A stretch of DNA of 64,000 bases from positions 258,921 through 322,920 of the forward strand of contig GG697241.1 of assembly GCA_009387755.1 (NCBI GenBank). The letters run 5' to 3'. Positions 58,543-63,958 of the stretch are shown here, piece after piece; the stretch's first letter is position 1, and the number at the start of each line of letters is the position of its first letter. The notes beneath the pieces are model-generated. The model was not told where the DNA came from. It did no database searches and saw nothing but the letters and a program-made list of their open reading frames with translations. The DNA comes from Candidatus Micrarchaeum acidiphilum ARMAN-2. GTDB taxonomy: Archaea; Micrarchaeota; Micrarchaeia; Micrarchaeales; Micrarchaeaceae. Position numbers and translations under genes: made by a program.

Positions 58543-59067
58543 ATGAACAATCTGCAAGCCAAATTATTTTTAATGTCGCAAAAGTTTCAGACATACTCTA
58601 AGCTCATCCTGGTATTTCTCATGATGGGCAGCTTTTTTGCATCATCATTGGTAAGTTTTTCCTCAGCGCAACCGGCCTGTACTTATCCTGGCGGAAGCCC
58701 AAATTGTGTGTCTTCAAGCTCCGGTTCTTCATGTTCAAGTTCATCGCTAGTTTCCGAGAACTGCACGCTTGTAGATACCAGCATATGTCCATCTGGCCAA
58801 TACGCCTGCGTTCCAATAACATATCCTGTTTGCAGCATATATCTATCGGTTAAAACAGTAATATTCATTCTTGGCCTTACGCTAATGCTTCTCGGCGGAG
58901 CGCTTTATGCCGGATCGCACGTGATGCCAGGCCAACACAAGGGCTCAATGCAGGGCTATGGAATGGGAATGATAATGGGTGGCATAATAGGCGTAATAAT
59001 AGCAGTTATAGCGCCCACAATACTCGGCTTCATAACCGGGAATTCAAGCATAGCCTCAACCTGCTGA
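58543..59067 (+). CDS. VirB2/TrbC-like small membrane protein
   Basis: 174 residues. Signal-like hydrophobic stretch (~20-42, cleavage near FSSAQPAC), a Cys- and Ser-rich external segment with six Cys (~45-95), then two helices (~102-122 and ~138-165) flanking a short polar loop (HVMPGQHKGSMQGYG). Two close helices with a small loop after a signal peptide is the pilin/VirB2-TrbC architecture. Cysteines differ from typical VirB2. It heads a co-directional run of membrane proteins. Assignment by architecture only. Confidence 0.5.
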   Translation: MNNLQAKLFLMSQKFQTYSKLILVFLMMGSFFASSLVSFSSAQPACTYPGGSPNCVSSSSGSSCSSSSLVSENCTLVDTSICPSGQYACVPITYPVCSIYLSVKTVIFILGLTLMLLGGALYAGSHVMPGQHKGSMQGYGMGMIMGGIIGVIIAVIAPTILGFITGNSSIASTC

Positions 59068-59123
59068 AGGCGGATTAAATTTTTAGTTGTTGCCTTCTTA
59101 TTATCTTCATTTAGGGCGGCAGC

Positions 59124-59855
59124 ATGACTAACGTTATCTCCTATGCGGTCAGGACGTATTCGAAGCACTTGGAGCTCATAACGCTGTCATCGCTTTCTTT
59201 TGTCATATCCTTTATCATACCTGCGTTCGCGCAGTTTCCAACGTTCAACGATCTCGGTTCCATATTCGTAAGGACCGCAAGCATATACTACAACCTTGAT
59301 ATACAGAGCACAATAATAATAATCGCGGCAACGATGTTTTCGCTGCTTTTCCTAAGCTTCGCTATAGTATCCATGGCTGTGGTCGTAAAGCACAGCAGGA
59401 CAAGCACCAGGATAACCAAGGAAGTGCTGGACGGCCTTGAAAGTTATACCGGAAAGGTCTTTACCCTGCTGCTTTTGTTCACCGGCGTGCTAATGGTTGC
59501 AGACATAGGCCTGTACGGCACAGGCTATGCGGGCATACTTACTGCTGTGCTCGGCCTTGTACTTACGCCTTTCTTCATCTTTGCGCCGTCCTCCATAGTG
59601 ATAGACGAAAGCAGCGCAATCAGGGCAATAAAGCGCAGCGCAAGGTTCTTCGTAAAGAGGTTCGACTACTTCTTGCTGTGGCTGGCAATTGCGATAATAC
59701 TTCTCACCATAGTAGATGGAATAGCGATAGGCGTGAGCGGCACATTGGTATCCAGATATGCTGTGCTGGTGGTAGACTCAATATTCGTGCTTCCGTTTCT
59801 TACCATACTCATAAACGAGATGTACATGAAGCGGTTCGCCCTCTTAAAGATATAA
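59124..59855 (+). CDS. Six-helix membrane protein, hypothetical
   Basis: 243 residues with about six hydrophobic helices (~18-38, 62-88, 113-135, 138-160, 188-212, 215-235) and the cytoplasmic loop FAPSSIVIDESSAIRAIKRSARFF. The P-x-x-x-x-D/E-x-x-x-x-x-A-x-x-R-S pattern occurs in DUF975/glycerophosphoryl-diesterase membrane domains of unknown role. Placed between the VirB2-like gene and the VirB6-like genes, so possibly part of the same complex. Confidence 0.6.
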   Translation: MTNVISYAVRTYSKHLELITLSSLSFVISFIIPAFAQFPTFNDLGSIFVRTASIYYNLDIQSTIIIIAATMFSLLFLSFAIVSMAVVVKHSRTSTRITKEVLDGLESYTGKVFTLLLLFTGVLMVADIGLYGTGYAGILTAVLGLVLTPFFIFAPSSIVIDESSAIRAIKRSARFFVKRFDYFLLWLAIAIILLTIVDGIAIGVSGTLVSRYAVLVVDSIFVLPFLTILINEMYMKRFALLKI

Positions 59856-59883
59856 CTAAATAGTTTTTTTACGCAGTCTACTT

Positions 59884-62444: not shown

Positions 62445-62454
62445 GTGGTTAAAA

Positions 62455-63927
62455 ATGTTAGACATATTCGCAATAACCTCGTTTACAAGCGTAAAGACAG
62501 ACTTGCTGCCGCTTGTCTTTGCAGCATTGTTTCTGGACGCGGCTATAATAGGAATATGGTACATGATAGGTTCGCTGTTTGCAAATCAAACGGTAAAGGC
62601 TTCTGCAAGGAACGAGCTCTACCAGCTGCTCGGCACAGGCGTAATGATATTCGTAATAATATTTATCTTGCTATTTTTCTCGACGTCATTCTACTATGTG
62701 CTTTCGGCCAACAGCCTTTCAAGCCCTACTACTATCTCGTCTATGTGCAATAACCTCGAGCAAAACTCCAATCTTCAGCTTTTAAATCCAAATGCCATAA
62801 TAAATTCCGGATCCATAAATCCAAACAGCTCTATAACTGGATCTGTCGGATATGCATCAATACTGGAGTCCAAATCCGCCAATTTTCCAGGTCTGTGCAG
62901 CATGGTCGAATCTGGTTCCGGGCTAACACAGCAGATAGATTATCCACTAAGTGCTTCAGGGGTTGTGCTTGCAAACCTGACCAACCAGACTGCCCTGCAG
63001 CTTAACAACCTATTTGTACTGGACGCATTCGTAGGCTTCCTGTACAAGCTAAAGCCAGAAGTCTCTTTCTGCTTCATGCCTGGCATTATTGTGCCAATAT
63101 GCATACTAATACCTGCCGACGCAGAAGTGAGCTACAGTTACGCACCGTTTGCGGGCTTAGAAATGATCTGGCGCGCCATGGGTGTGCTTGCCGCACTTAT
63201 GATAGCCGCATTTGAATCTTTCACAGCGCAGCTTACCATACTTACCATATCGCTTTATTCCTGGCCCTACCTGCTTTTCGGGGGAATGGTCCTTAGGGTA
63301 ACTCCGTTTACAAGGCGCATTGGCGGATTTCTCATAGCGGTAGCCATAGGCATGGTGGTATTCTATCCGCTTGTTTTCATGACGGAATACATGTCGCTTG
63401 GAGGGGGCCTTGGCTCGGCATTCGGGCAAAATGGCGTAAGCTCAATCTACGGATACAACTCAATGCTCACCAACAATGTCACGTATATACCTGGCAATGT
63501 AATAAGCAATCCCGATGGCACCACAGAGATAACTCCATATATACCAAACTTCTATGTTTTGCCAAACATATACCTGATAGGAACAGCCTACGGCTGCGAC
63601 CCTACTGTGACATCCTCAAATCCCTCACTTTTGAACTATGAGGCAGCAGATCTCGGATACCTGACGATACCTTTCTTAGGCATAAGCGAGTCGTATCTGG
63701 ACGCGAACTCCAATACCCCGCCGCCTGTGATACACCTTCCCTACGGATGCACAGAACCAGAGGCTTTGCAGACACTGTTTACGATCTTCAACGTCTATGG
63801 CATAATTGCGGTAACCGCATATTTCCTTCCAATAATAAACATACTGATAGTGCTTAGCGGCATTATAGGGCTGTCAGGCCTGCTTGGCGGAGAAACGCAG
63901 ATAATAGGACTTTCAAGGTTGGTATGA
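62455..63927 (+). CDS. Large polytopic membrane protein, VirB6/TrbL-like (3 of 3)
   Basis: 490 residues; ATG 62455 chosen (10 nt after previous stop, GGTTAAAA upstream) over a frame overlapping it. Helices near 18-42, 62-86, 225-250, 260-285, 305-330, 455-485, and the WYMIGSLFANQTVKASARNELYQ segment shared with the two previous proteins. Large Ser/Asn-rich external loops hold several Cys. Ends in a TGATG overlap with the next gene. Confidence 0.5.
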   Translation: MLDIFAITSFTSVKTDLLPLVFAALFLDAAIIGIWYMIGSLFANQTVKASARNELYQLLGTGVMIFVIIFILLFFSTSFYYVLSANSLSSPTTISSMCNNLEQNSNLQLLNPNAIINSGSINPNSSITGSVGYASILESKSANFPGLCSMVESGSGLTQQIDYPLSASGVVLANLTNQTALQLNNLFVLDAFVGFLYKLKPEVSFCFMPGIIVPICILIPADAEVSYSYAPFAGLEMIWRAMGVLAALMIAAFESFTAQLTILTISLYSWPYLLFGGMVLRVTPFTRRIGGFLIAVAIGMVVFYPLVFMTEYMSLGGGLGSAFGQNGVSSIYGYNSMLTNNVTYIPGNVISNPDGTTEITPYIPNFYVLPNIYLIGTAYGCDPTVTSSNPSLLNYEAADLGYLTIPFLGISESYLDANSNTPPPVIHLPYGCTEPEALQTLFTIFNVYGIIAVTAYFLPIINILIVLSGIIGLSGLLGGETQIIGLSRLV

Positions 63928-63958
63928 TGAAAAGCACAGCTGCAAAAAGAAACCTGCG
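63927..63958 (+). CDS. Start of the next gene (truncated by probable vector sequence)
   Basis: ATG 63927 overlaps the previous stop (TGATG), so a further gene of the same operon begins here (MKSTAAKRNLR...). Only about 10 codons precede the vector-like segment, so nothing can be said about its product. Confidence 0.4.

Follow-up and report, generated by a model that had tools for sequence, protein, structure and literature searches.

Archaeal relatives of type IV secretion systems (T4SS) that share a VirB2/VirB6/VirB4-like core import DNA (PMC9905601). The Ced system of Sulfolobales and the Ted system of Thermoproteales are encoded on the chromosome without a relaxase, and combine a VirB2-like pilin, a VirB6-like channel and a VirB4/HerA-type ATPase. 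In Saccharolobus, CedE, a VirB6-like paralog of CedA, and CedD, a VirB4-like paralog of CedB, are essential for DNA import (PMC11868833). Here we describe a comparable locus at the right end of a 64,000-nucleotide stretch of Candidatus Micrarchaeum acidiphilum ARMAN-2 (positions 258,921 to 322,920 of contig GG697241.1, assembly GCA_009387755.1; hereafter the window). We consider it very probable that the 5' half of a T4SS-derived machine of Micrarchaeota, a Ced/Ted-like conduit encoded on the chromosome and inherited vertically, lies in this region; the initial annotation of the window, which had proposed a secretion or DNA-transfer machine, is supported and was largely right. The exchange of material between DPANN archaea and their hosts has long been an open question. 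This machine is probably a channel with a pilus, evolved from the DNA-transfer machines of bacteria, and it may be a route by which Micrarchaeota exchange material with other cells.

Like Ced, the Micrarchaeota system has paralogous parts, but it encodes six VirB6-like proteins against one or two in Ced and Ted, together with the additional conserved proteins M, B, C, D, E, F and H described below. Candidate counterparts of the Ced/Ted trio are recognised here from Pfam, the TrwI fold and VirB4-type matches rather than from CedA/TedC profiles, and the Ced equivalog cut-offs are not reached. The T4SS of Patescibacteria (PMC12102498) is likewise chromosomal, near-universal in a host-dependent lineage with reduced genomes, composed of VirB4, VirB6 and VirB2 and mostly devoid of a relaxase; it differs in being bacterial, of the MPF-FATA type, and expanded in VirB2 (arrays of 2-11 genes) where the present system is expanded in VirB6. 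In gene layout, a precedent for this expansion is the rvh T4SS of the host-dependent Rickettsiales. Its four to five VirB6 paralogs (five in Rickettsia, four in Anaplasma; PMC2653234, PMC7648143) are encoded in tandem, have diverged from one another and bear extensions that are large and variable. The rvh system has, however, kept VirB8-B11 and VirD4; here VirB8-B11 were not recognised in the operon by Pfam, and VirD4 was not found in the genome with PF02534. Finally, R388 (TrwI/VirB6, TrwL/VirB2, TrwK/VirB4) provides the best fold match for two of the VirB6-like proteins, and its TrwL is weakly found by the pilin profile; its outer-membrane parts are absent here, as is a relaxase in the PF03432 search, and its VirB6 is a homopentamer. 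The bacterial VirB6 pentamer lies beneath the hexameric ATPase complex (PMC12624023). Relative to these systems, with one to five VirB6 proteins, the six of Micrarchaeota form an unusually expanded set.

Operon structure and its continuation beyond the contig end

Five genes on the plus strand occupy the right edge of the window. The first, P (58543-59067), encodes a 174-aa VirB2/TrbC-like pilin with a signal peptide and two helices separated by a short basic loop, and the second, M (59124-59855), a six-helix membrane protein of 243 aa. They are followed by V1 (59884-61281, 465 aa), V2 (61290-62444, 384 aa, GTG start) and V3 (62455-63927, 490 aa), the first three of six VirB6-like polytopic paralogs, and by the first codons of V4 (63927-63956), which is truncated by the contig end. 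An in-frame TTG at 62386 is a less likely start of V3 than the preferred ATG at 62455. Successive genes from P to V3 are separated by 56, 28, 8 and 10 nt, and the V3 stop overlaps the V4 ATG in a TGATG at 63925-63929; the open reading frame (ORF) coordinates thus agree with the initial annotation of five same-direction membrane-protein genes with gaps of 8-56 nt and a terminal TGATG. Hydropathy counts gave 3 (signal plus two), 6, 8, 6 and 6 hydrophobic segments for P, M, V1, V2 and V3, respectively. Since orthologs of all five are kept in the same order, at ~26-57% identity, in dozens of genomes, we regard the five ORFs as real genes. This includes M, which matched no Pfam family when the window protein was scanned: its orthologs are at the same position in all eight relatives for which loci were fetched, and a relative lies near pilins in another family (L118, E 1e-68).

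The right edge of the window is the physical end of its contig, here C8 (322,920 bases). Because the first ORF at the left end of another contig, C5, matches positions 73-369 of the V4 profile (E 7e-97), the right end of C8 and the left end of C5 are the two sides of an assembly gap within V4, in which an estimated 50-60 codons are missing. On C5, the partial V4 is followed by V5, V6, B, C, an ATPase gene (C5:5905-7422), D, E, F and H. The same continuation, with three more large membrane proteins, B, C, the ATPase, D, E, F and H, was found in the eight relatives with fetched loci. Among relatives with a name, the nearest belong to Candidatus Micrarchaeota and include Ca. Micrarchaeum sp. A_DKE, and the locus is complete in the complete genome of Ca. 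Micrarchaeum harzensis A_DKE (L038). The initial count of three different VirB6-like proteins per operon therefore holds for the window, and the total past the gap is six.

Downstream of V6, B and C are paralogous proteins of 277 aa, each with two N-terminal transmembrane helices; D has 103 aa, E has 139 aa with a CxxC motif and two transmembrane helices, and F has 247 aa with a coiled coil. H (785 aa; L025:9135-11492), which is conserved across the phylum and matched no Pfam or NCBIfam family, has a large outside domain between two transmembrane helices; the cytosolic part that follows contains a conserved aD motif and lacks a clear catalytic pattern. In profile cross-matches, D (L025:7415-7726) resembles the C-terminal domain of the ATPase itself, as though a copy of this domain had become a protein of its own. 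We also considered B and C as a detached VirB3 plus VirB4 N-terminal domain; the layout fits, but neither Pfam (23 and 15 members scanned) nor PDB searches supported this identification. A single B/C relative from a second system of this genome (see below) matched the TraC N-domain at E 0.19.

The ATPase and the pilin

A VirB4/TraC-like ATPase had been predicted just past the right edge, and it is indeed present ~6 kb beyond that edge, both on C5 and in complete relatives. The protein (505 aa, soluble) scores over the Pfam cut-offs for PF01935 (HerA central domain, 55.7 bits), PF12846 (AAA_10, 52.2 bits) and PF19044 (TraG P-loop, 39.4 bits). Its Walker A (GITGAGKS) and Walker B (VVLDEAW) motifs are invariant in nine genomes save for one A-to-S change in Walker A. 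Against NCBIfam models it reaches ~65 bits for VirB4 of mollicute integrative and conjugative elements, far under the equivalog cut-off, and 65.2 and 66.2 bits for CedB and CedD, far short of equivalog level (cut-offs 700 and 600, respectively). The best 15 plasmid relatives listed are all annotated as TraC, with 23-25% identity along 74% of the query length; TraC is the VirB4 of F-type machines. Among PDB structures, VirB4 (4ag5) spans the whole ATPase core, and HerA structures score higher, mainly over the second half. With 505 aa against about 800 in VirB4, and its P-loop at residue 67, the protein appears to lack the N-terminal domain of VirB4. On sequence comparison, it is an ATPase of the VirB4/CedB type; since VirB4 and HerA share a superfamily, the choice of VirB4 over HerA rests also on gene context.

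The alignment of the P family shows a signal peptide, two hydrophobic helices and the short basic loop between them. One relative (L033) matches Pfam TrbC/VirB2 over its full length with 32.6 bits (cut-off 27.9), which bears out, at the level of the family, the VirB2/TrbC layout originally ascribed to the small protein. At a loose threshold (E<=5), T4SS_pilin was reported in 5/7 family members and TrbC in 4/7, and the R388 pilin TrwL was second in a PDB profile search with the family (E 0.02). The family is found in 39/39 high-quality relatives, some of these matches being the pilin of the second system. The small protein had also been called Cys-rich, which is true of the pilin of this species, with eight Cys and a species-specific Cys-rich insert at about residues 49-105, but not of its relatives, in which about two Cys are kept. 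Pilin-like domains also occur in longer proteins: one of 687 aa with 24 Cys adjoins a pilin gene (L032:16870-18933), and more long ORFs with pilin matches were found in genomes G014 and G027. These could be tip or adhesin pilins.

Six VirB6-like paralogs

Profile-profile comparison with hhalign matched V1 to each of V2-V6 at 98.9-99.5% probability (V2 versus V1, 98.9%, E 3e-17; V3 versus V1, 99.4%, E 3.5e-21). In the profile alignments FGEMLNISSIKG, AGSLLPGSTRTK and IGSLFANQTVKA occupy the same columns, and the repeated element that had been noticed in the three large window proteins thus reflects real homology. The consensus lines of the large paralogs have in common a region with the motif R-x2-P-x-[TR]-R-x2-G-G, from which V2 departs.

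The resemblance to VirB6 comes from structure prediction. AlphaFold2 models of V1 (pLDDT 72) and V3 (pLDDT 77.6) were compared with PDB chains using VIA, and in both cases the top hit was R388 TrwI/VirB6 (V1: 8rt9_F, Z 7.0, 241/272 residues; V3: 7o3v_F, Z 7.8, 234/261 residues), with ~90% of the TrwI length aligned. Foldseek returned no match for either model at E<=0.001, and PDB profile searches with V3 and V6 were also without a match. We conclude that the proposed match of the large proteins to VirB6/TrbL is moderately borne out, and that there is moderate support for a VirB6 fold in the V proteins. In other families of the class, the V genes form either a single array or two, which in some cases have no linkage to the ATPase gene, and there are VirB6-like proteins with large Cys-rich extensions. 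Two such proteins, of 1126 aa with 84 Cys (L121:7450-10830) and of 664 aa with 45 Cys (L120:9464-11458), are encoded in arrays apart from the ATPase.

A second, minimal system in the same genome

The same genome encodes a second, minimal system on the minus strand of contig C4, at about 15.3-18.4 kb (L144:3265-6133), which consists of a pilin-like gene (C4:18194-18433), one V-like gene, one B/C-like gene and one VirB4/CedB-like ATPase gene. Its B/C-like protein matches the B/C profile at 99.8%. Every genome examined has such a second system. The V-B/C-ATPase set was present in 16/16 second-system loci examined, being conserved in 15 relatives; a pilin was found beside it in 14 loci by script and, for the own-genome locus, by a separate profile search. 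These pilins match TrbC/VirB2 in 11/12 cases at E<=2, the best at 4e-5. Whereas the window operon has six VirB6-like genes and two B/C genes, the second system has one of each, and the minimal set of pilin, V protein, two-transmembrane-helix protein and ATPase looks like the ancestral form. Type IV pilus genes adjoin this second system (L024:12835-17255, C4); they include an archaellum/pilus-type ATPase, which scores 258.6 bits against the FlaI model, and a membrane protein with weak similarity to UpsF, an arrangement that recalls the Ced-Ups pairing.

Weighing the T4SS assignment

Several observations weigh against a T4SS-derived machine. The V proteins belong to no Pfam family, as judged from scans of those in the window and of the V1 and V6 families, and Z values of 7-8 are in the range where VIA warns of a mere common helical arrangement; for both V1 and V3, the score of a designed helical repeat protein came within 0.5 Z of that of TrwI. 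The window pilin itself is under both Pfam cut-offs, with a TrbC score of 11.6 bits, so that VirB2 membership is a family-level result. HerA-type helicases match the ATPase as well, over short stretches, and Pfam scans of the operon proteins recognised no counterparts of VirB3, VirB8 or VirB10. In the literature, we found no expression, localisation or transfer data for the locus, and a co-culture transcriptome paper does not discuss it.

Taken to its end, this line of argument would make the locus no T4SS at all, and instead a HerA-type DNA helicase that merely has as neighbours multi-pass membrane proteins of an unrelated family. The absence of Pfam matches for the V proteins fits such an account, as do the HerA structures, whose scores equal those of VirB4 for part of the ATPase. 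However, a helicase of this kind would not explain a pilin family with a TrbC/VirB2 match, the independent occurrence of the pilin-V-two-helix-ATPase set twice per genome, the ranking of VirB6 first by fold, or TraC as the best plasmid relative listed. We therefore regard it as very improbable and retain the T4SS-derived machine as our interpretation.

Conservation and inheritance

The initial annotation had called for a look at conservation in DPANN genomes. Within one phylum of these, Micrarchaeota, the VirB6-like proteins are widespread: the V1-type profile matches 256 of the 295 genomes sampled, and 88 of the 96 of high quality. The ATPase profile matches 58/60 close relatives, including all 39 high-quality ones. 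ATPase relatives are encoded in 386 stretches of genome contigs, and among the best 80 of these 386 loci the order V1-V2-V3-V4-V5-V6-B-C-ATPase is complete and on one strand in 35, where the gap between genes has a median of 3 nt. Most of the other loci among the 80 are cut by contig ends, and some have no V array nearby. In five loci (L058, L060, L061, L070 and L090) B-C-ATPase-D-E, or only the ATPase end, is present without an adjoining V array; therefore, the parts are separable in the genome.

In a tree of 124 V proteins, built by a quick method with weak deep branches, V1-V6 and the V-like protein of the second system each form one clade (SH-aLRT 98-100; V2, 100). Several divergent tandem VirB6 paralogs, a feature of the rvh type, are thus present here as six clades, provided that the VirB6 assignment holds. 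Each of the V1-V6 clades is divided in the same way between two host families, and proteins of another family join the V3, V5 and V6 clades by position; sorting of the V proteins by position is clear, with 7 changes against 86 in shuffles. The shared two-family split argues that the expansion is older than the families and was vertically inherited: on this tree, the VirB6-like expansion is ancient and predates the Micrarchaeota families.

These patterns bear directly on whether the locus is a mobile element, conjugative or integrative, that is only transiently in the genome, as its individual parts, a TrbC/VirB2 pilin and a TraC-like ATPase, descend from conjugation machinery. A PF03432 relaxase was found in 0/60 relatives, other relaxase families not having been searched, while the same search detected the relaxase in a Lactococcus control. 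VirD4 (PF02534) is absent from the own genome and exceeds the cut-off, at a borderline score, in 1/60. The locus is present in nearly every genome within a chromosomal neighbourhood common to many relatives, each V clade has the same split between two host families, and the ATPase search of viral contigs retrieved no relative. Together, these findings leave practically no room for a mobile element.

Proposed mechanism and role

Based on these results, we propose that the operon encodes, in the order P, M, V1-V6, B, C, VirB4/CedB-type ATPase, small accessory proteins and the large membrane-anchored surface protein H, a machine whose assembly, stoichiometry, substrate and direction we infer as follows. 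The cytosolic ATPase would dock on the membrane via B and C and energise pilin extraction, substrate movement or both; the VirB6-like proteins would form the membrane base, and the pilin a short conduit towards an adjacent cell. Because the six V genes stay distinct orthologs in a fixed order, we suggest that their products form a hetero-oligomeric base with non-equivalent positions, where bacterial T4SS have a homopentamer. A broader scenario, which we advance tentatively and with well under even confidence, is that before the families diverged a homo-oligomeric VirB6 base was replaced by a hetero-oligomer of six obligate paralogs, kept throughout the phylum as a host-connecting machine beside a one-VirB6 sister system that retains the ancestral form. 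Six retained VirB6 paralogs beside a sister system with one constitute a natural experiment on the role of VirB6 and on whether a VirB6 ring can be heteromeric.

By analogy, the most likely role of the machine is that of a contact-dependent conduit for macromolecules. We favour uptake over export because the Ced paralogs are essential for DNA import and archaeal relatives with the same core import DNA. In one specific form, this would be DNA uptake of the Ced/Ted type from kin or host, for repair or nucleotides. The same three core parts (VirB2, VirB6 and VirB4-like) are encoded on the chromosome without a PF03432 relaxase, the CedB and CedD models are among those closest to the ATPase, and Ced too requires paralogous parts, CedE and CedD. 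On the other hand, the 65-66 bits of the ATPase compare with CedB/CedD equivalog cut-offs of 600-700, no nuclease was recognised in the operon, and the minimal one-VirB6 copy in the genome would suit the role better, leaving the six-VirB6 machine to do something else. DNA uptake is thus a good possibility that falls short of an even chance.

Export of effectors or other proteins into the host archaeon, as by the T4SS of epibiotic Patescibacteria or intracellular Rickettsiales, is the other specific form that the conduit might take. It would suit the host-dependent lifestyle and the large Cys-rich parts seen in a number of V and pilin-domain proteins; elsewhere, multiple copies of VirB6 are known from Rickettsiales, and T4SS genes are essential for the epibiotic growth of Saccharimonadia (PMC12102498). 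Yet a VirD4-type coupling protein is essentially absent and no candidate effectors were found in the operon, and we consider export unlikely, if less so than a function without any transport. The latter would be a dead-end attachment pilus, a VirB2-type appendage serving adhesion. ARMAN cells are reported to be joined to Thermoplasmatales cells by pili-like links (as cited in PMC5498576), and a pilin is present in all high-quality relatives; however, six channel-type proteins and a translocase-type ATPase exceed the needs of adhesion, and a type IV pilus ATPase is encoded in the genome as well, which makes this account improbable.

In the literature covered, from which most subscription journals are missing, we found no paper pairing Micrarchaeota with VirB6; the publications found on DPANN together with VirB4, VirB6 or type IV secretion concern Patescibacteria and nanohaloarchaea, not the Micrarchaeota locus, and none of the papers covered describes the machine. 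A near-universal, strongly conserved T4SS-like machine gives named Micrarchaeota genes to test in existing co-cultures, such as that of A_DKE.

Sequences flanking the operon

The last bases of the window (63957-64000) are polylinker-like and error-laden, with GGATCC, GTCGAC and CTGCAG (BamHI, SalI and PstI sites) close together. Since a plasmid search with this presumed vector tail gave no match, its origin is judged from the polylinker-like sites, and the ~45 bases at the contig end are probably untrimmed cloning vector from a Sanger assembly. At its other side, the operon is bordered directly upstream by a carbamoyltransferase-like gene in the opposite direction (window 56672-58477), and the same neighbour is found in many relatives.

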